The position numbers and the translations under genes are program-made. DNA of 64,000 bases from a virus. Positions 12,886 through 64,000 of the stretch are shown piece after piece (within the stretch, counting starts at the first letter, position 1; the number at the start of each line of letters is the position of its first letter). Location: positions 21,655 to 85,654 of the IMG/VR virus record IMGVR_UViG_3300020474_001469, one strand, 5' to 3'. The notes below the pieces were generated by a model. That model was not told the DNA's origin. It saw only the letters and a program-made list of their open reading frames with translations, and ran no database searches.

Positions 12886-13453
12886 TGGTATGGACACAAG
12901 CATACATTTAGAAGTAGCTGAAAGGCTTAATCCTAGCACCTGTGTAGAAGTAGGCACTTATTACGGAGGTATAACTTACAAACTATGTAAAGCATTACCC
13001 CATTGTCATTTTTTTGCAGTCCAGGCATACCACGATCATAAACTTAATCACATGCCGGATACAATAAGAGGAGAATACAGCCAAGGAGTAGCTGATAAGA
13101 CAAAAAGCATTAATCTAGATCCTAGCTTGAAAAACCAAGATTGGAAAAGAGCAGTAGCACAAAATTTTCCTCCTGAATATCATGATTATTTTGATTTTAA
13201 TTTATTAGTAAAAACATTCCAAGATTGTAACAATGTAAGCATAATATTAGATACAAGTCCATTTAAATGGCAGTTTCCTGAAGTAGATTTAACTATTTTT
13301 GATTTATCTCCATTACTAGAAGAGAATATAAAACAGTATGAATTTTGGAAAAATAAAAGTAAAAATATTTTAGTAGGAGCATATAATCATCAACAAGAGT
13401 TTATTGATTATGCAGGCGGAGCAAAAATGAGAAAGGATTATGTATTGGTATGA
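12869..13453 (+). CDS. Class I SAM-dependent methyltransferase-like protein
   Basis: 194 aa. TCVEVGTYYGGITYKL near residue 27 is a motif I (ExGxxxG) SAM-binding loop, and FFAVQAY is the next beta strand. A late IFDLSPLLEEN segment is compatible with motif IV/V. Short for the family, and the acidic ribose-binding residue after motif I is not obvious, so activity is uncertain. Embedded between two 2OG-type genes with overlapping ends, so presumably a step in the same pathway. Confidence 0.6.
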   Translation: MYSMHDGMDTSIHLEVAERLNPSTCVEVGTYYGGITYKLCKALPHCHFFAVQAYHDHKLNHMPDTIRGEYSQGVADKTKSINLDPSLKNQDWKRAVAQNFPPEYHDYFDFNLLVKTFQDCNNVSIILDTSPFKWQFPEVDLTIFDLSPLLEENIKQYEFWKNKSKNILVGAYNHQQEFIDYAGGAKMRKDYVLV

Positions 13454-14163
13454 CAAAGAATTATCACGAAGCAGTTGGCTTTTATCAAACATATGAATTA
13501 AATGTAGATTTTGTTGAAAGAGTAAGAGAAGAGATTACACCTTTTTTTGAAAATTATGTTGTTGATGATGTAGCACAAGGAGGATGGGGTAGCGGTTATG
13601 TGCCTTTTGAAGATTGCGGTCCTTGGACACACAAGTTTATAGATTTGTTTAAAGGCAACTTTTTAAGTAATATAAGATTAAGTGCTTTCAGTCCAACAAA
13701 TAGTTATGATTGGCATATTGGTATAGAGAAAGAAAACAATAAATGGAAACAGGGTGGTGAGAACGAAGAACCGGAAATTTATCCTTATCAAGTTAAATGT
13801 AGCACACTAAATGTTTTTTGTAGTCCTTCTATAGGTGATAGAACATTGTTTGCAACCGATATGGATATGCCTCCTTATAGAGGATATTATATTGGATATG
13901 GCACCAAAAAGAAGATGCTTGTAATAGATGAAATGGTTGTAGATAGAAATCCTGTTATTTTAAATACAGGGCTATGGCATAAAATAGATGCAAGTGGAGA
14001 AAGAAACATGGCTAGTTTTCTGTTTACTCCTTATCTTAGTTTTGCAGGATTAGTAGCATATTGTAGAGAAGTAGGATTATTGATCGAAAGGACTAATCCT
14101 ATTATACCTTATTACGAAGAAGATTGGGAAGACAAGTATATGCAAGGAAGAAAATTTGACTAA
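13450..14163 (+). CDS. 2OG oxygenase paralogue with HxG instead of HxD
   Basis: 237 aa. Aligns by eye with the genes at 14156 and 15889: a loop before the first His, then the late block NTGLWHKID and a (G/E).RN.ASF ending with a V.LLIER tail. The distal His is H177 and the Arg R185. Where the paralogues have H-I-D and H-F-D, this one has H89-I-G91. Loss of the metal-binding carboxylate is typical of inactive copies, but also of Fe/2OG halogenases (HxA or HxG). Function is therefore open. Confidence 0.65.
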   Translation: MTKNYHEAVGFYQTYELNVDFVERVREEITPFFENYVVDDVAQGGWGSGYVPFEDCGPWTHKFIDLFKGNFLSNIRLSAFSPTNSYDWHIGIEKENNKWKQGGENEEPEIYPYQVKCSTLNVFCSPSIGDRTLFATDMDMPPYRGYYIGYGTKKKMLVIDEMVVDRNPVILNTGLWHKIDASGERNMASFLFTPYLSFAGLVAYCREVGLLIERTNPIIPYYEEDWEDKYMQGRKFD

Positions 14164-16476: not shown

Positions 16477-17023
16477 ACTCGCCCTTCCAGCGTAAAAATG
16501 GTTCTTCACTTGCAAAAGGCCAACCACTAATATTTAATCTATCACCAGTACAGTTATCTACTTCATGTAGTATGTCTACATGCATACATACAAGCCTATT
16601 TCGTTTAGGTAATATGCTTATACCATCGACACGTAAAGCACCATCAGTTTCGTCTGTCAGGTATAACATGTATGTCCAATCACCGTATATTTTATGATCC
16701 TCTATATGTGGAGCACAGAAACTTCTTTCTGGTTCAAACTTTTTTGCAAACAGTTGCAGGGGATTAAGTTTTTCTGTTGGAAGATCTAAACCTATTACAT
16801 TGCCTATTTTTTTCAACAAAGGATAACGCAAGTCACTTCGCCTAAGTTCTGTGCGTAGCATATACCAATCATAGTCTGTTTTTTCTTCCATTACATGATT
16901 ACAGTCTTCATTGTTTAATGAAATAGTTTCAGCTCCGGTAACTAACTTTGTAAGATCTGTAATTAATTCTTCTTCTAAAAAATTATCACAAATTATTAAT
17001 GTATCAAACTCAGTTCTTAGCAT
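16463..17023 (-). CDS. 2OG oxygenase-like protein with HxE variant
   Basis: 186 aa. Double-stranded beta-helix pattern of prolyl-4-hydroxylase type: F-x-APH106-I-E108 (HxE, not HxD), WTYMLYLTDETDGAL, distal H153 in ILHEV and R162 in DRLNISGW. HxE occurs in a few active members of the superfamily. It overlaps the radical SAM gene upstream by 14 bases and may share its transcript. Confidence 0.6.
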   Translation of the reverse strand: MLRTEFDTLIICDNFLEEELITDLTKLVTGAETISLNNEDCNHVMEEKTDYDWYMLRTELRRSDLRYPLLKKIGNVIGLDLPTEKLNPLQLFAKKFEPERSFCAPHIEDHKIYGDWTYMLYLTDETDGALRVDGISILPKRNRLVCMHVDILHEVDNCTGDRLNISGWPFASEEPFLRWKGESNAQ

Positions 17024-18083
17024 AATTTAATTCCTTTGTATTCCAATTTTTTCCATATCCACTACTGTATTCAAATTTTTGCCCACATGTCCTTCCACAT
17101 GTATATATTCTTTTATATTTGTCATCAGGATTATTCCAGGATCTTTCTAAATAAGTTTGGAAAAATTCGTTTTGTAAAACATTCCAACCATATTTTCTCA
17201 TATCATTAAAATCTTCGCCATACAAGTCTAAAAAATATTTAAAACTTTCCCATTGTTTAGTATGCCTTTTGTCGGCAAAATATTTAGGACCACCAAACCA
17301 ACAGCATGGCCATAGGCGCATATCCATATCAATAAATAATCTAAAATCTTTTTTAAACTTACAAGTGATATCTGTATTTGCAACATAATCATCAAAGTTT
17401 TTGTATTGAGAAAGTACAGAAGAAAAGTCTTGTGTTACGTGACTGTCTTTATTTTTTACCGTATTGCCTTTTCTAGTTTTAACTTGCGTTTTTGTATCTT
17501 GAAATCTAGCAGTATATTTTACAGTAAAATTGGTAAATCCTAATTTACTTGCTAATTTTTCTGCATCATCTATTTGATGATAATTATGTGCAAACTCTAT
17601 AAATTGCCATTCTGCTTTCCCACCAGCTTTTATATAAGCAGTTGCATTTTCAATAATTTTTTCGAAATTACTTCCTATTCTATACAAATGATTAGTATCT
17701 TTTAATCCGTCTATTGAAAATACTACAGATAGTTTTTCTTTGCCGTTATTAGCTAAGTCAGTCCACCACTTAGGTTTCCTAGCACTACCATTTGTTTCTA
17801 TTCTCATTGTTCTTGTAAAATCTAAACTGTATAAAAAAGTTTCTTCAAAGGTCGGACTTGCTATTATATCTCCAAAGTTTCCACAATGAATAATTTGGTC
17901 TAATTTATTATTTGTAAAAGGTTCTAATATAATTTTATAATCTTGTAAAGTTAAATCAGTGATTGGCATACCTGGATTTACTTTTTGATCTTTACTTACC
18001 CTGCCACATTGTGGACACATTAAATTACATCTGCTTGTATGATCAAGCATTAATTTTTTAATGTATGAAGTATTAGTAAACAT
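17010..18083 (-). CDS. Radical SAM/SPASM protein
   Basis: 357 aa starting MFTNTSYIKK; this ATG overlaps the upstream stop (TAATG) and is preferred to a start 36 bases earlier. Radical SAM cluster CNLMCPQC (C19, C23, C26) at the very N-terminus, IHCGNFGD instead of GGE, IETNGS and SIDGL. C-terminal SPASM-like WPCCWFGG and CGRTCGQ. Same family as the truncated gene at the left edge of the window, but on the opposite strand at the far side of the cluster. Confidence 0.86.
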   Translation of the reverse strand: MFTNTSYIKKLMLDHTSRCNLMCPQCGRVSKDQKVNPGMPITDLTLQDYKIILEPFTNNKLDQIIHCGNFGDIIASPTFEETFLYSLDFTRTMRIETNGSARKPKWWTDLANNGKEKLSVVFSIDGLKDTNHLYRIGSNFEKIIENATAYIKAGGKAEWQFIEFAHNYHQIDDAEKLASKLGFTNFTVKYTARFQDTKTQVKTRKGNTVKNKDSHVTQDFSSVLSQYKNFDDYVANTDITCKFKKDFRLFIDMDMRLWPCCWFGGPKYFADKRHTKQWESFKYFLDLYGEDFNDMRKYGWNVLQNEFFQTYLERSWNNPDDKYKRIYTCGRTCGQKFEYSSGYGKNWNTKELNYAKN

Positions 18084-18730
18084 TATTTTATAAGTGCAAA
18101 TTTCTTGCAGTCGTCCCAACTTTCAGTATCGTAAGGTATATGGGCAACTACTCGCCAATGATCAGTAGGATTCACAACCTGATGAAACTGATGTCTATTA
18201 AAGATAGCAGGCTTTTCGTGTAAACAATATTCTACAGCAACTTCTTCGTCTGGTATTTCTGATAATTCTGGCCTGCCTTTAATATAATTATAGCTGTCTA
18301 TATATCTATTATCTTCTGGATCGTGCCAATGTGCATACTTTGTTATGCTTTGTTCATCAGTGCCTATTAATGGTAACATTAAGGCACCTGCATGCCAATC
18401 AGGTGAAGGAGCAGGATGTCTGTGCGGGACAAATATAGGAGTTATTTCTGGACATGTAACAAAAAACATAACATCAGATACAAGATGAAACTTAGGTATT
18501 AATCTTTGCCATTCGTTGTATTCAGGTAAATGCATAATTTGTCCAATACGAACTTTTGTCCACATTCTGGCTCTATAAAATGCATCATTGCGTTCAAAAT
18601 GTTTTTTAAAGTAATCGGTTCTTGGTTGGTTAGTGACTAAGCTAGGACATATATTAAATATATCTCTACACATCCTTTGCATTAACGTATAATCTTCACT
18701 CCATTCAAGTTCTATTATAAAATCATCCAT
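18083..18730 (-). CDS. 2OG oxygenase-like double-stranded beta-helix protein
   Basis: 215 aa. Candidate first metal ligands H103/H105 in VPHRHPAP with D111 just after, then WHAGALMLPLIG, late H183 in NRHQFHQVV and R193 in HWRVVAH. The layout fits a 2OG oxygenase or Asp/Asn hydroxylase fold, but the H-x-D dyad is not clean, so call it a family-level guess. Its stop overlaps the start of the downstream radical SAM gene. Confidence 0.55.
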   Translation of the reverse strand: MDDFIIELEWSEDYTLMQRMCRDIFNICPSLVTNQPRTDYFKKHFERNDAFYRARMWTKVRIGQIMHLPEYNEWQRLIPKFHLVSDVMFFVTCPEITPIFVPHRHPAPSPDWHAGALMLPLIGTDEQSITKYAHWHDPEDNRYIDSYNYIKGRPELSEIPDEEVAVEYCLHEKPAIFNRHQFHQVVNPTDHWRVVAHIPYDTESWDDCKKFALIK

Positions 18731-47688: not shown

Positions 47689-48159
47689 TTATTTGAAATT
47701 TCTAAGTGAGTGGTATAATTGGTCCTTAACAGACTCTTCTTTTGGTTGTTCTTTGGGCCTTTGCCCTTTTAGTATTCTATTCATAGATACTAAACTACTT
47801 CTAAATCTAGGTTCAGTAAGTAGCTTTGTTATTAATCCTACATAAGGACTGAGTGCATTTCTTTCATTTGGAGTTAATGTTTCTCCTGCTACTGCTTTTT
47901 GTAAGCCTCTAGCTACTAGTATATTTGGGTCATCGGAATCTAAGTCTGATTTAAGTGCTGAAATAGCGGCCGACAATCTATTGGTATCAATGTCATCTTC
48001 GCCTACAAGTTTGTCTTTCAAAGGATGTGGTTGTGAACCGTTTTTACTTGGTGTAGAAGTTTTTGGTGTTGGATCTTTGCCTTTTGCCTGTCCAGGAGAG
48101 CCCATCTTTTGCTTTTCATTTACACCTGCTAGTGTTCGTATTTCATCAAATATACTCAT
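47689..48159 (-). CDS. Hypothetical protein with LAGVNE leader
   Basis: 156 aa. Starts MSIFDEIRTLAGVNE, a leader shared with the 51189 protein. A proline/lysine/serine-rich linker follows, then a helical domain. Probably an internal virion protein; see finding. Confidence 0.5.
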   Translation of the reverse strand: MSIFDEIRTLAGVNEKQKMGSPGQAKGKDPTPKTSTPSKNGSQPHPLKDKLVGEDDIDTNRLSAAISALKSDLDSDDPNILVARGLQKAVAGETLTPNERNALSPYVGLITKLLTEPRFRSSLVSMNRILKGQRPKEQPKEESVKDQLYHSLRNFK

Positions 48160-48167
48160 AATAATAT

Positions 48168-48398
48168 TTAGTCCCTCAATGCGGCGTAGCCTTTGTCCTT
48201 GGCAATTTCAATAGCTCTTCTTGCGTCTAATGGTTTAATTTTAGGAAATTTTTTCTTCAACATTTTAAGAAGTACTCTTTCAGGATAAATGTTTACCTTA
48301 GGCACAATATAAGGAAGATATTCGGTCTTCATTTCCTTGCCCGACCAATCCATCCATTTGGGCCAACCCCATCCTTCTGTAATTTGGTGTGCTAACAT
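48168..48398 (-). CDS. Small hypothetical protein
   Basis: 76 aa from the ATG two bases after the stop of the cysteine-rich gene; the longer frame would overlap that gene by 47 bases. Tryptophan-rich start (GWGWPKWMDWSGKEM), basic end. Unrecognised. Confidence 0.55.
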   Translation of the reverse strand: MLAHQITEGWGWPKWMDWSGKEMKTEYLPYIVPKVNIYPERVLLKMLKKKFPKIKPLDARRAIEIAKDKGYAALRD

Positions 48399-48399
48399 A

Positions 48400-48507
48400 T
48401 TACTTACAATGTTTACAACTGCAACCTGTACAAACATCATTTGCACAGTCTAAACATTCTTCACCGCAATGATGGTCATGTCCACATTTCTCGCACTTGC
48501 ATTCCAT
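48400..48507 (-). CDS. Metallothionein-like 35-aa protein, ten cysteines
   Basis: A 36-codon frame with a strong AGGAGAGG site before its ATG. Starts MECKCEKCGHDHH; ten Cys (3, 5, 8, 14, 18, 21, 26, 29, 31, 34) and four His in 35 residues, in CxC/CxxC pairs. It fits exactly between its neighbours. Likely binds metal (Zn, Cu or Fe-S); sequence does not show which. Related small proteins not known to me. Confidence 0.75.
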   Translation of the reverse strand: MECKCEKCGHDHHCGEECLDCANDVCTGCSCKHCK

Positions 48508-48526
48508 AGTCCTCTCCTAAATTATG

Positions 48527-49213
48527 TTATTTTTTTTGTTCTTTTTTATAACGTGCTAAAAACTGCTTGTGTTTCGCATGGCTCTCTGCCGCATCTGGGC
48601 TTTTCTTATAAATTTTTAGCCAACCCTTATATTCTAAGTCATCTTTGGAACTGCTCTCTTTTACTTTTCCATATGTTTTACAAGGGTCTTGGCCACAACC
48701 ACAGTTCTTTTTCTTTTCAACAAGTTTGTTGTTTAGCTTTTCTGATAGTACATTTTTGTATGGCGTAGGTGCTTTTGCATGGTACTTAGATTCAGCAAAT
48801 TTCATTTCATAATCTAAGTTGTGGAAAACAGAAGATATGTAATCAGCGGCTTTAGTAATTTTACTTTGTTGCCAACCTTGTAGTCCTTCTGCTTCTGAAA
48901 TATTTTTTAGCATATTATGGAGTTTAATAGAATATTTTGCAAGTTTGTATAAGTCTGATCTAGCCATATCAACTTCGTGATCTTTTTCGACCATATCAGC
49001 CATCATTGCCATATTCGAACCTTCTTCTACCGAATCTTTAATTTTAACACAGTTATCAACTGTCTTGCCACCTTTTTTCTTAGTGCCCATACGTTTATAG
49101 CCCTTCCAACAAACCTTGCCATCTACACCTTTTTGTTTTTCTTCGTCTAGTGTAGTGTAACTAGGGTTACCACAATCTGGGCATAATTCGCTTTCAAAAT
49201 GTTTTAATCTCAT
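48527..49213 (-). CDS. Conserved phage protein with zinc-type cysteines
   Basis: 228 aa. Starts MRLKHFESELCPDCG; CPDCGNP and CGCGQDPC look like metal sites. KGYKRMGTKKKGGKTVDNC and ISSVFHNLDYEMKF are conserved in marine T4-like phages as I recall, function unknown. The leader resembles a capsid-targeting sequence. Confidence 0.6.
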   Translation of the reverse strand: MRLKHFESELCPDCGNPSYTTLDEEKQKGVDGKVCWKGYKRMGTKKKGGKTVDNCVKIKDSVEEGSNMAMMADMVEKDHEVDMARSDLYKLAKYSIKLHNMLKNISEAEGLQGWQQSKITKAADYISSVFHNLDYEMKFAESKYHAKAPTPYKNVLSEKLNNKLVEKKKNCGCGQDPCKTYGKVKESSSKDDLEYKGWLKIYKKSPDAAESHAKHKQFLARYKKEQKK

Positions 49214-49627: not shown

Positions 49628-51192
49628 TTCTTTCTCCCAGATTTCATATTTGCACACCAATGATACATTTTAGCTTTTTCACCTGATGCATTTTTTGCCT
49701 TTTTACGTAGACTAGTAACACTACCGTTGCAACTAGCACCTGAACGTTTTACACGTCCTGGTCTGCTTTTACCCTTTTTTTTACCGTCTGCAAAGTTTTC
49801 TACGATTGCTTTTATTTTCCATGGCAACCTAGCAACTTCAACTTCCTTTATATTTAACATTTTAAGAGCATCTAGTCTATGATGCCCATTAATTATTTTA
49901 TTGTCACAGTCTACTACAATATGATTGTATTTACCAGCTGTCAATCTGTCAACCTGTCTTTTAAAGTTTTCCATAATACGTTCTTGTTGCACAGAGATAA
50001 GATCTTTTACTTGTACTTTTTCTATTGTATGTTTAATATTTTGTAAATTTTTATTTTTTATTTGTGGAAGTTGGTCTCTTGTATAAGATTCCTTCTTTTG
50101 TTGATTCATTGCTATTGCGTAAATAGCACCTTCTGGATCCATTCCTTTTTCTTTAGCCCATTTTGCTATATTTTTTTTTGCTTTGGGTTTACTTTTTAGT
50201 TTGTCAGCTTTTTTATGGGCTGACTTAATATCCGACTTGCTCATATCTTCTTTCATTAGTGTTTTTAAATTTCTAGCTGTTCTTTCAAACTTATGATCTT
50301 TATGTTTAAAGCCCATACCACCAGCGGCTTCCCATTTTCCTATGTTTATTCCGTAGTCGTCAATTAGTATGTTAGGAGTGCCATCAGATTGAGATGCGTA
50401 CTTGGCTTTATCAAATGTAATAATAATATTCTTAGGTGGAAAGAATGATAAGTGTTTTTCAATCCATTGTCTTTTATGTGGTTCTGAATTAGGATCATCT
50501 GGCAACGGACTGCTTAAAATGTTGTACGATCCTTTGATGTCTTTGATTAGAGATAGTAGGTTTTTTGCATTACTTGTCACTGGCAAATTTAGCCAAAAAT
50601 CTTCTGTATCTCTTATCTTTTGCAAGGCTGGTTTTATGTCTTTTATGTTTCTCCAATCCTTACCAACAAGTTTTTTCCAGTCTCCAAAAAAATCTGCTAA
50701 TACACCGTCCATGTCAACATAGATCTCACTTTGTGCATTTATGTCTTCTTTTACTTGTTCTTTTTCTTTTTTTCTATTCTTAGATATCTGATGTGCAAAA
50801 TATCCTCCTGCACTACCACCTATTAAATATCTAAGGAAATCTACAACTACTTCAGGACTCACACCAGGTGGCATTCTTCTAAGGAATTCTGTCATTATTT
50901 CCTTAGCTTTTTTTGCTCCTTTTTTCTTAGCTAATAGTGTAAAAGCCGCGACTATGATTGGCCAAACTTGTATTGCTTCTGTAACTTGTACTGATTCTGC
51001 AAGTCCTAAGTTATAGAGAACATTAGTGCTTTTACCTTTTACTTTTTTACTTAATGTAGGAGGTCTTCCGTCTTTGTCTACAGTATTACCAAACTTTTTT
51101 GCTTGTCTTGGGATTTCATTAGTACCCACATCAACTGTTGTGTTAACACCCTTTACTATTCTGCCGTCTTCGTATAATTCACCTACTTTCAT
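49624..51192 (-). CDS. HAD nucleotidase - ParB-like fusion protein
   Basis: 522 aa with at least four parts. Leader MKVGELYEDG. Hydrophobic/glycine segment (about 75-130) as a possible membrane or core helix. HAD/5'-nucleotidase-like domain from EIYVDMDGVLADFF to LIDDYG. ParB-type motif VVDCDNKIINGHHRLDALKM, a nucleotide or nuclease fold. C-terminal SLRKKAKNASGEKAKMYHWC module seen on other phage proteins. Looks like a virion or head multidomain protein. Confidence 0.65.
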   Translation of the reverse strand: MKVGELYEDGRIVKGVNTTVDVGTNEIPRQAKKFGNTVDKDGRPPTLSKKVKGKSTNVLYNLGLAESVQVTEAIQVWPIIVAAFTLLAKKKGAKKAKEIMTEFLRRMPPGVSPEVVVDFLRYLIGGSAGGYFAHQISKNRKKEKEQVKEDINAQSEIYVDMDGVLADFFGDWKKLVGKDWRNIKDIKPALQKIRDTEDFWLNLPVTSNAKNLLSLIKDIKGSYNILSSPLPDDPNSEPHKRQWIEKHLSFFPPKNIIITFDKAKYASQSDGTPNILIDDYGINIGKWEAAGGMGFKHKDHKFERTARNLKTLMKEDMSKSDIKSAHKKADKLKSKPKAKKNIAKWAKEKGMDPEGAIYAIAMNQQKKESYTRDQLPQIKNKNLQNIKHTIEKVQVKDLISVQQERIMENFKRQVDRLTAGKYNHIVVDCDNKIINGHHRLDALKMLNIKEVEVARLPWKIKAIVENFADGKKKGKSRPGRVKRSGASCNGSVTSLRKKAKNASGEKAKMYHWCANMKSGRKK

Positions 51193-51410
51193 TTCTTCCT
51201 GCCTCTAAATTGAACAGGTCCAGTCATGTAGGGTTTAGAAAACCATAGCTTAAACCAGTCAGCATCTCCAGGCTTAACTCCTAGTTTCTTTTCTTTACGT
51301 TTTAATTCTGCGGCTGTTTCAGAGGGGTTTTCGTCTATCTTGTATTCAGTAAATCCTTTGAACTCATTTACACCTGCAAGACGTTTTAGTTCTTCAATAC
51401 TAGAATACAT
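51189..51410 (-). CDS. Small protein with LAGVNE leader
   Basis: 73 aa. MYSSIEELKRLAGVNEFKG, then TAAELKRKEKKLG and PGDADWFKLWFSKPYM. Leader shared with the 47689 protein. Overlaps the fusion gene by four bases. Confidence 0.5.
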   Translation of the reverse strand: MYSSIEELKRLAGVNEFKGFTEYKIDENPSETAAELKRKEKKLGVKPGDADWFKLWFSKPYMTGPVQFRGRKK

Positions 51411-61203: not shown

Positions 61204-63726
61204 CTATTTTAAGTTGTATTGTAATTCTTCCATTGCACCAAACTTAGGATCGTTTAAGAACCATCTAGAAAAATAATGATCCACAGTAGGCTTATCTGGA
61301 TAAAATGCAATCTGTTCTATTTCTTTTTTATTGTAATCAAAACCTGGCACAAAAGAAATAAGTGCAAGGAGTTGTCGTTGTACTAACATTTGTTGTTCTA
61401 TAGTTACTGCGTTTTCAATCTTCTTTGTTAATTCGTTGGCCTTTTTAGCAATTAACATCTTTAATTTATCATTTCTACTAGTGGGTTTTTTCTTAGCTTT
61501 TGGCTCTTCTTTAGTTTCCTCTTTTAGCTGTGCGATTTCTTTTTCAATGTCATCTTCTTGTTCTTTACTGCCTCCAATTGATCCATCTTTTTCGCCTGGT
61601 GTTTTGTTATCTTCTTTAGACTTTTGTTTATCTTCTTTCTTCTCTTCTTCTTTTTCTTCAATCTCTTCGGACTCTTCTTTTCCTTCTTCAAGTTCTTCTT
61701 TAGCCTCATCAGCATTTGGATTGTTAGTTTCTTCTTCTAATGAAGCAATCTCTGCTTCTATGTTATCCTCTTGATTAGATTGTCCATTATTAGACTGTGA
61801 TTCTAAGGAAGCAATTTCTGCTTCTATGTTGTCAGACATTGCCATTGTGCCATCCATTGATTCTAGTTCTGCAAGTTCTCTTTCTATACTATCTTCCATT
61901 GCTGTCAAGTCAGATTGTACAATATCAACTTCTGGAACTTGTACTGTTTCAGTTGTTGTGTCGACAGTTGGTTGTACAAAATTTTGTACAGTAGGTAATC
62001 CTTCAATTTGTAAACCTGTATTAATATCTCCTATTATAATTTCTGTATCTAATATTTCTTCAATTGGATCTATATCAGTTCCATCGTCAACAATTTGTAT
62101 TGGTGATATGTAACCTGCACACGTTTCATCATATTGTGGATCAAAACTACATTGTTGGTTAAAATACGCAACATCATAACCTATGCATGTAGTTTCATAT
62201 AAAGGGTCAATGTTACATTTTGCTTCTTTATAACCTGTACATGTTGCATCAAATAATGGATCTAATGCACATTGTTGATTCAAGTAAGCAGTCGCATGTC
62301 CTGGACACCCTTTATCATATAAAGGATCCAATGAACATTGTTGGTTATAATATGCTTGTGCATATCCTGTACAGCCTGCATCGTATAATGGATCCAAAGT
62401 ACATTGCTGGTTATAGTAGGCTGTAGCATATCCAGGACATTGTGTGTCATACAATGGGTTTAGTGAACATTGTTGATTGTAGTAAGCTGTAGCATATCCT
62501 GGACATTGTGCATTATATAATGCACTTATTGAACATTGTTGATTAAAATATGCAGTAGCATATCCTGGGCATTGCGGATCATGTAATGCACTTATTGAAC
62601 ATTGTTGATTAAAGTATGCAGTAGCATAACCGGGACAGTTCTGGTCATGTAATGCACTTATTGAACATTGTTGATTAAAATAGGCTGTTGCATATCCAGG
62701 ACAGTTTTGGTCATGTAATGCACTGATTGAACATTGTTGATTAAAATATGCAGTAGCATAACCAGTGCAAGAAGTATCATGTAATGGATTTAAAGCACAT
62801 TGTTGGTTTAAATAAGCAGTTGCATATCCAGGACAATTCTGATCGTGTAATGCATTTAAAGAGCATTGTTGGTTATAGTATGCTGTTGAGTATCCAGGAC
62901 ATGTTGGGTCATGTAATGGATTTGCTGAACATTGTTGTGTCATATAAGCCGCCGCATATCCTGTACAAGTAGGATCAAATAACGGGTTTTGAGTACATTG
63001 CTGATTAAACAATGCTACTGCATAACCTTGGCATTGCGGATCATATAACGGATCGTTATGGCAAGGATTAGCTGAAAAGGTTAATTTTAATTCAGATTGA
63101 GCAACATTAAATTCAGGACCATAACGACCAGCCCAGTTTGCACTATCACTTCCTTGTGCGAGTATGTTTATATCTGAAAAATATGACGGAGGTAAAAATT
63201 GATTAGGAAAAGTTTCCGATCCGGAATGAGTAGTCCAATTGTGAGAATGGCCGTAATCATAAGTATATGTTTGATATGTGTTACCGTTGGAGTCTAATAT
63301 TTCAACAGTGATTTCAAAATCATCTATTCCTGGTTGGTTTGTGTAGATATTTGCGTTACCATTTTTAACTCGCCATTTATAAGTAAATCCGTTTACCTGT
63401 ATACCTGCCTGTGCTAATGCAGTATTAATAGCTATAGTTGTGCTAATAATTTCATCTGCACCACCCCAAATAAATCCACTGTCATTAGGTAATCTATTAG
63501 GAACAGATTCGTTTCCAACACCTGCTGGATTTCTACTTCCACCCCACCAACCAGTACCATAAGTACCAGTCCAGTTCTGAGCACTGGGATCTAGTAAATC
63601 ACCTGTCGTGGAAGTTTGGGGAGTTGTATTTACAACCTGTGCTGATGCATTACAGTAAAAGCAAAAGCATAAGAGCACTGCCAATAACGGCGCCAATACC
63701 CAAAGTAGCTTGTTTCTTTTGAACAT
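61204..63726 (-). CDS. Secreted protein with 15 Cys-pair repeats
   Basis: 840 aa from the ATG at 63726 (a GTG 24 bases earlier is possible). Signal peptide: KRNK, long hydrophobic core, NASAQ. A beta-rich N-terminal domain (about 30-220), then 15 repeats of 22 residues of type C-S-I-S-A-L-H-D-Q-N-C-P-G-Y, and a Glu/Lys-rich coiled-coil region before a C-terminal domain. Two Cys per repeat suggest disulfides in the host periplasm or on the virion. Its start overlaps the upstream gene. Confidence 0.75.
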   Translation of the reverse strand: MFKRNKLLWVLAPLLAVLLCFCFYCNASAQVVNTTPQTSTTGDLLDPSAQNWTGTYGTGWWGGSRNPAGVGNESVPNRLPNDSGFIWGGADEIISTTIAINTALAQAGIQVNGFTYKWRVKNGNANIYTNQPGIDDFEITVEILDSNGNTYQTYTYDYGHSHNWTTHSGSETFPNQFLPPSYFSDINILAQGSDSANWAGRYGPEFNVAQSELKLTFSANPCHNDPLYDPQCQGYAVALFNQQCTQNPLFDPTCTGYAAAYMTQQCSANPLHDPTCPGYSTAYYNQQCSLNALHDQNCPGYATAYLNQQCALNPLHDTSCTGYATAYFNQQCSISALHDQNCPGYATAYFNQQCSISALHDQNCPGYATAYFNQQCSISALHDPQCPGYATAYFNQQCSISALYNAQCPGYATAYYNQQCSLNPLYDTQCPGYATAYYNQQCTLDPLYDAGCTGYAQAYYNQQCSLDPLYDKGCPGHATAYLNQQCALDPLFDATCTGYKEAKCNIDPLYETTCIGYDVAYFNQQCSFDPQYDETCAGYISPIQIVDDGTDIDPIEEILDTEIIIGDINTGLQIEGLPTVQNFVQPTVDTTTETVQVPEVDIVQSDLTAMEDSIERELAELESMDGTMAMSDNIEAEIASLESQSNNGQSNQEDNIEAEIASLEEETNNPNADEAKEELEEGKEESEEIEEKEEEKKEDKQKSKEDNKTPGEKDGSIGGSKEQEDDIEKEIAQLKEETKEEPKAKKKPTSRNDKLKMLIAKKANELTKKIENAVTIEQQMLVQRQLLALISFVPGFDYNKKEIEQIAFYPDKPTVDHYFSRWFLNDPKFGAMEELQYNLK
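62104..63063 (-). repeat. 66-bp coding tandem repeats (15 units)
   Basis: Fifteen near-identical units of 66 bases (22 codons: C-x10-C-P-G-Y-A-T-A-Y-x-N-Q-Q); the sixth and seventh units are identical in protein. Unit 13 is shortened (TGYKEAK). Edges diverge, the middle is most alike, a sign of recent expansion. Confidence 0.85.
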
Positions 63727-64000
63727 CTTCTTTTGTCTCCAATTCTTCACGAGGTGGTATTTTTCCTGGATTGGATTGCCATTCGTCAGTAGCTTGTTCG
63801 CCTATTTTTCCTAAATAAGGACAAGGAGTTCCTGCCATTTCCATAGCATCATAAACTCTCCTATCTTGACATAGTACTGATACTGCCGCAACTTTCATAC
63901 CCATGTCGTATAAAGTTTTTGATATTTTTAATCTTTCACAGTTTGCATCTCTTACAGTTTCACCTGTTGAAATACCTAGTATCTGTGTTTGTACTGCACC
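63650..64000 (-). CDS. Conserved phage protein, start outside window
   Basis: At least 116 aa; the frame is open to the window edge. Contains GISTGETVRDANCERLK, LYDMGMKVAAVSVLC and AGTPCPYLGKIG and ends in a hydrophobic helix (LGIGAVIGSALMLLLLL). Similar proteins occur in other phages; function unknown. Its 3' end is shared with the signal peptide of the next gene. Confidence 0.6.
   Translation of the reverse strand, partial: GAVQTQILGISTGETVRDANCERLKISKTLYDMGMKVAAVSVLCQDRRVYDAMEMAGTPCPYLGKIGEQATDEWQSNPGKIPPREELETKEDVQKKQATLGIGAVIGSALMLLLLL

Follow-up and report, generated by a model that had tools for sequence, protein, structure and literature searches.

In known metallothioneins, four-metal clusters use 11 ligands, and the ligands of SmtA are nine Cys and two His; in prokaryotic metallothioneins (PF02069), a Zn4 cluster is enclosed by strands and a helix in a zinc-finger fold. 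SmtA binds four Zn, and bacterial metallothioneins, in which His is common, mix Cys and His and bind three to four Zn (PMC10612145). The C-terminal CRD of class II ribonucleotide reductase is a further small Cys-rich zinc domain and can be a separate subunit (PMC5704485). The stretch of DNA analysed here (the window, 64,000 nucleotides, a portion of an 85,654-base IMG/VR record) carries a gene whose product, MECKCEKCGHDHHCGEECLDCANDVCTGCSCKHCK, has 10 Cys and 4 His in 35 residues. Like SmtA and BmtA (PF02069), this microprotein is small and Cys-rich with few His ligands and with CxC and CxxC motifs, and the ligand set of SmtA is comparable to the at least 11 Cys/His ligands of the microprotein family. 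Unlike SmtA and BmtA, which are approximately 55 residues long, the family spans 35–60 residues with a different ligand order and spacing, has a conserved NDV loop, is phage-borne and lacks a PF02069 match: none of 64 members matches at E up to 1, with SmtA as a control at E 3.9e-21. Judged by sequence, the microprotein belongs to a previously undescribed family of tiny phage proteins.

The gene starts with ATG at 48507-48505 and stops with TAA at 48402-48400 on the minus strand, where the start is preceded by a strong Shine-Dalgarno sequence (TTTAGGAGAGGACT-ATG; Table 1). The first-pass annotation had pointed to a strong ribosome site, a tight fit between genes and the 10 Cys and 4 His, all of which the sequence confirms. 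A longer GTG reading of the 76-aa downstream gene, from 48446, is needless, as its conserved part runs from MLAHQ. No terminator-like sites were found around the microprotein gene, which is thus probably co-transcribed with its neighbours. The window holds one ORF of 30–60 residues with an ATG start and at least 25% Cys, and none arises in 150 first-order Markov copies; this and, decisively, the conservation described below rule out a chance ORF.

Table 1. Features at and around the microprotein gene, in window coordinates.
Feature	Position	Strand	Remarks
Microprotein gene (stop codon included)	48400..48507	-	Open frame with Shine-Dalgarno sequence; family of about 100 sequences; purifying selection
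Shine-Dalgarno sequence AGGAGAGGA	48510..48518	-	Direct read of the sequence
Upstream gene, 228 aa, without Pfam match	48527..49213	-	Co-oriented; stop 19 nt ahead of the microprotein gene
Downstream gene, 76 aa, start MLAHQ	48168..48398	-	1 nt past the microprotein stop; synteny kept in contig L006
Family B DNA polymerase (jumbo-phage type)	44428..47097	-	Approximately 1.3 kb downstream; commonest shared neighbour of the family

In near-identical sister contigs the microprotein sequence is unchanged. The version in contigs L004 and L005, MECKCEKCGHKCHCGAECQECANDVCTGCSCKHCK, differs from the query by seven synonymous and seven non-synonymous changes over approximately 16 and 86 sites, respectively. 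Contig L006 begins inside the microprotein gene, and the end NDVCTGCSCRHCK-stop survives there beside a 76-aa neighbour that is only 49% identical. Across the family, dN/dS is approximately 0.20 for pairs at moderate divergence, a summary figure over overlapping pairs rather than a test; 94 of 97 members start with ATG, an SD-like motif precedes 81 of 97, and the median distance from the upstream gene is 3 nt. Each of the 16 viral records searched holds a single copy. The upstream 228-aa gene has many relatives, the majority without the microprotein, which is therefore an accessory gene. Lack of conservation of the frame in relatives had been named in the first-pass annotation as a finding that would refute the peptide; the frame is instead conserved in about 100 relatives. 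Taken together, the microprotein is a real, conserved coding frame under purifying selection.

Relatives were sought through neighbouring genes and degenerate DNA patterns. The first pattern, C-x2-C-A-x-D-x-C-x2-C-x-C-x2-C, which fixes six Cys and leaves N and V free, matched 66 viral stretches, 64 of which nevertheless read CANDVC. In 84,980 prokaryote species genomes it matched 20 stretches, with one genuine member on an 11.5-kb contig of a Pirellulales MAG (L158); its neighbours are the same as those on viral contigs L120 and L138, and it is therefore probably phage. Two further patterns enlarged the set, and a small HMM yielded 106 distinct ORFs, a few of them marginal, 96 of which were aligned. 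The tiny homologues that the first-pass annotation proposed to look for thus exist, on 64 CANDVC viral contigs and as about 100 distinct relatives in all. Family members have 9–14 Cys each, mostly 35–60 residues and a mean of 1.3 aromatics, which fits metallothioneins in the general sense. Pfam, PHROGs and NCBIfam hold no match to the family. Against cultured phages, tblastn gave chance-level matches for the query (two Erwinia phages and LesNorah) and none for two relatives, searches in which the BLAST low-complexity filter may have masked the queries. For this reason six cultured-phage records were searched with a profile, and the sole match was in HTVC008M; no member was found by profile search in jumbo phages Phosso, Atu_ph07 and 121Q, whose polymerases are closest to that of the window.

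Thirteen positions (3, 5, 8, 10, 12, 13, 14, 18, 21, 26, 29, 31 and 34, query numbering) are able to hold Cys or His. Complete sequences never fill fewer than 11: 11 are filled in 40 sequences (for example MDTKCNKCGHTSHCDKECPECANDVCYRCECARCTDSK from L097), 12 in 6 and 13 in 53. C5, C8, H13, C26, C29 and C31 are present in 96/96 aligned sequences, C18 and C21 in 95/96 and C14 in 92/96. Position 10 is Cys in 60 and His in 36 of the 96, with no other residue, and position 12 varies among Cys, His and Ser. The non-ligand residues N23, D24 and V25 are strongly conserved, the first two being near-invariant except in loops shortened to two residues. Some letters were fixed by the search patterns, so unconstrained positions were rechecked in the set found with CANDVCxxC, a search that left positions 5, 8, 10, 12–14, 18, 31 and 34 free: Cys or His at position 10, His13 and Cys31 each occur in 59/59. 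Four sequences of this set have 12 ligands, one of them at a contig end. All sequences with Ser12 (n = 13) retain C14 and C34, and all those missing C14 or C34 (n = 32) carry C12. Losses at positions 12, 14 and 34 never coincide, with a shuffle probability of 0.001–0.016 after clustering at 70–90% identity; as this handles relatedness only crudely, the absence of double losses is suggestive.

A compact multi-metal thiolate cluster would predict both the near-fixed ligand number and the exchange of Cys and His. In the reduced cytosol, the Cys and His of the microprotein very probably coordinate several metal ions. Beyond this, we propose, with a probability of roughly 0.5, that the microprotein is a cytosolic metallothionein-like protein that, in the course of infection, buffers zinc or captures it. 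Produced together with its neighbours and nearly without fold when metal-free, it would wrap 10 Cys and two or three His around divalent ions, approximately four or possibly five of them and most likely Zn(II), in a metal-thiolate/imidazole cluster. It would then act on its own as a buffer or sink for zinc, capturing zinc, or a toxic soft metal freed by host protein breakdown, and the captured zinc could pass to new phage proteins. This reading draws on the Cys content of approximately 29%, the CxC and CxxC spacing, a net charge of -3 and the few aromatics; on the count of 11 or 13 (rarely 12) ligands, the Cys/His-only position 10 and the invariant His13; on the low dN/dS and on the single copy per record amid varied neighbours, the latter two of which argue for a self-contained role; and on the mixing of Cys and His and the binding of three to four Zn in bacterial metallothioneins (PMC10612145). 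By analogy with metallothionein chemistry, we infer the metal binding, its stoichiometry and zinc as the metal and, less firmly, the buffering role. Counting against a metallothionein are the missing PF02069 match and the missing metal-homeostasis gene, none of which was seen adjoining the microprotein, and the conserved N23, D24 and V25, which would be unusual in a pure metal sponge.

The main rival, doubtful yet well ahead of the remaining ones, is a structural zinc microprotein, in which two to four Zn would hold together a very small domain resembling a zinc knuckle or zinc ribbon with the metal as scaffold only, and the NDV loop and charged surface would bind nucleic acid or a protein of the phage or the host, as a replication, transcription or takeover factor. 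Residues C5, C8, H13 and C18 fit the zinc-knuckle spacing C-x2-C-x4-H-x4-C exactly and are nearly all invariant, with one to three residues inserted ahead of C18 in some lineages; this arrangement, in which Gly often follows the second Cys, is that of the CCHC zinc knuckle of the retroviral nucleocapsid type. In line with this, the only trace in the PDB, weak at E ~0.2, is to CCHC knuckles; no Pfam profile, that of the CCHC knuckle included, matches with an E-value of 1 or less. The conserved N23-D24-V25 also suits a structural role. Unlike a CCHC knuckle, however, the family has three to five additional conserved Cys/His within or beside the knuckle and a C-terminal Cys cluster, and 10–14 Cys in 35–60 residues exceed the need of two zinc sites, the extra positions being kept as Cys/His and compensating for one another. 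An AlphaFold2 model of the query, computed without metals, is coil only, with no strands or helices (pLDDT 85), and Foldseek found no fold match to it. Additionally, the negative charge is unsuited to a nucleic-acid binder.

The structural reading also gains from a second, unnamed family of zinc-finger-like phage microproteins, here termed the SHC family (CKNCGHxSHCG...[IV]C-x2-C-x-C-x2-C), in which residues other than the ligands are conserved and two strands are predicted. It is the larger of the two, with at least 120 stretches among the matches listed, and includes the hypothetical proteins AGE60383.1 of Pelagibacter phage HTVC008M and QOI69074.1 of Mosig EXVC030M. Sequence comparison indicates that the query family is homologous to it: hhalign gives a probability of 96% and E 1.7e-9 with both Cys clusters aligned, a score to be read with the Cys-rich composition in mind, and profile A1 of the query family retrieves AGE60383.1 at E 2e-4. 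The two families share the clusters C-x2-C-x4-HC and C-x2-C-x-C(-x2-C), whereas SHC proteins have approximately seven Cys and a middle part of 10–25 residues, replaced in the query family by EC-x2-CANDV. The two strands are predicted in this middle segment, which is absent from the query family; the prediction used an alignment solely of sequences from viral contigs. Foldseek with the SHC model gave only two convincing viral matches; at 40 and 45 aa, these are as long as the proteins of HTVC008M and Mosig. The Mosig protein is intermediate between the families, MAECKNCGHDCHCGCECDECINDVCVTCDCAKKDIPDSFTKENT (L354) was found by the SHC pattern and is of the query-family type, and in five loci (L208, L237, L242, L244 and L255) genes of both types lie in tandem with a 4-nt overlap. 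These sequences suggest that the query family is probably a branch expanded in Cys in which EC-x2-CANDV would have replaced the strands, and the homology, with its conserved non-ligand residues, suggests that the metal sites of the ancestor were structural. Position 10 of SHC proteins can be Asn, so that two separate zinc sites are equally likely there, and we do not claim a rule of one metal per two ligands spanning 9, 11 and 13 ligands across both families. Four proteins of 84–108 aa with 13–18 Cys (L374, L384, L400 and L425) join an SHC-type unit to extra Cys-rich segments, and that of L425 resembles two fused units. The SHC genes of HTVC008M (3998-4120 of L320) and Mosig (3001-3138 of L321) lie upstream of and adjacent to genes for a PAAR-like protein and baseplate wedge, and their proteins offer a cultivable entry point for experiments.

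Gene neighbourhoods bear on both zinc readings. A family B polymerase lies 0.8–4.2 kb downstream in 49/102 representative loci, which favours the structural rival, and the polymerase lies there in more than one arrangement: either with 'AGV' type genes, as in the window, or in the order clamp loader, RegA-like, Hsp20-like, microprotein, lysozyme-like, polymerase. Other members lie by ribonucleotide reductase, amid neck/tail-like genes or adjoining an adenylate-cyclase-like gene, and this variation counts against a structural role; all these labels, except that of the window polymerase, are by-eye readings of sequence rather than profile matches. Several genes near the microprotein, including those at 47689-48159 and 51189-51410 on the minus strand, share a starting motif (MSIFDEIRTLAGVNE and MYSSIEELKRLAGVNE) and have relatives in many contigs; the motif is possibly a common signal for targeting or cleavage, such as one for capsid packaging.

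The remaining readings are less likely than zinc buffering or structural zinc. A copper (or silver/cadmium) thionein guarding against Cu(I) or soft-metal stress in infection is unlikely: the high Cys density and the CxC motif would suit Cu(I) too, but the invariant His13 and the Cys/His exchange at position 10 speak for zinc, such features being usual for zinc and not for copper thioneins, and copper genes were not seen in the vicinity. It is very unlikely that the gene encodes an Fe-S carrier or a disulfide-rich peptide or is an untranslated ORF, readings to which its short length and the presence of radical SAM genes in another part of the window might point. No Fe-S family in Pfam, PHROGs or NCBIfam matches; a secreted disulfide peptide is rejected, since no signal peptide is visible, the Cys number is odd or even (9–14) and Cys and His swap; and the low dN/dS and the Markov copies speak against an untranslated ORF. 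Of what the first-pass annotation suggested for function, a probable metal-binding peptide is supported by the variation among relatives, namely Cys/His exchange and the ligand floor, whereas Fe-S supply is unsupported, the radical SAM genes being approximately 30 kb off at the opposite window end; a tie to the many metalloenzymes of this phage is needless, because other phage lineages carry relatives in quite different gene neighbourhoods. Least likely of all is a detached Cys-rich redox/zinc domain for ribonucleotide reductase, which, like the class II CRD (PMC5704485), would be small and Cys-rich and which the gene's position approximately 150 nt past the reductase gene in the five tandem loci recalls, and we reject it, as those reductases end in ELACxAAGGCEI, their own C-terminal Cys pair, and the great majority of members lie at loci with no reductase nearby.

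A bolder form of the metallothionein-like reading, which we put forward tentatively, is that these would be the first metallothioneins of bacterial viruses: phage-born from a zinc-finger-like microprotein, gaining one metal per two ligands from 11 to 13, and, in metal-poor water, commanding the zinc of the host in lytic infection. No description of a phage metallothionein was found in the open-access published literature searched; the one phage paper naming metallothionein does so in a table entry of its bacterial genome section. If the reading is true, a widespread family would add intracellular zinc control to the functions taken over by phages. The ligand rule yields clear predictions that are quickly testable with a synthetic 35-residue peptide. 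Family members, differing in length and in the use of Cys or His, further form a natural set of minimal metal-binding proteins, and they illustrate how much curated phage families overlook below approximately 50 residues.

Two further regions of the window stand apart from the microprotein. A large protein encoded at 61204-63750 on the minus strand has approximately 11 tandem 22-aa repeats (CPGYATAYFNQQCSISALHDPQ, at 62230-62967) with regularly spaced Cys, and is possibly a surface or fibre protein. Between 1439 and 18119 lie genes for six or more radical SAM proteins (PF04055; a SPASM domain in one of them as well) and a seventh, at 17010-18119, just under the Pfam cut-off, interleaved with genes for small proteins that are 2OG-Fe(II) oxygenase-like by eye, of which the one scanned, at 13450-14163, has no Pfam match; this run may be a peptide- or small-molecule-modification island and is worth a study of its own.
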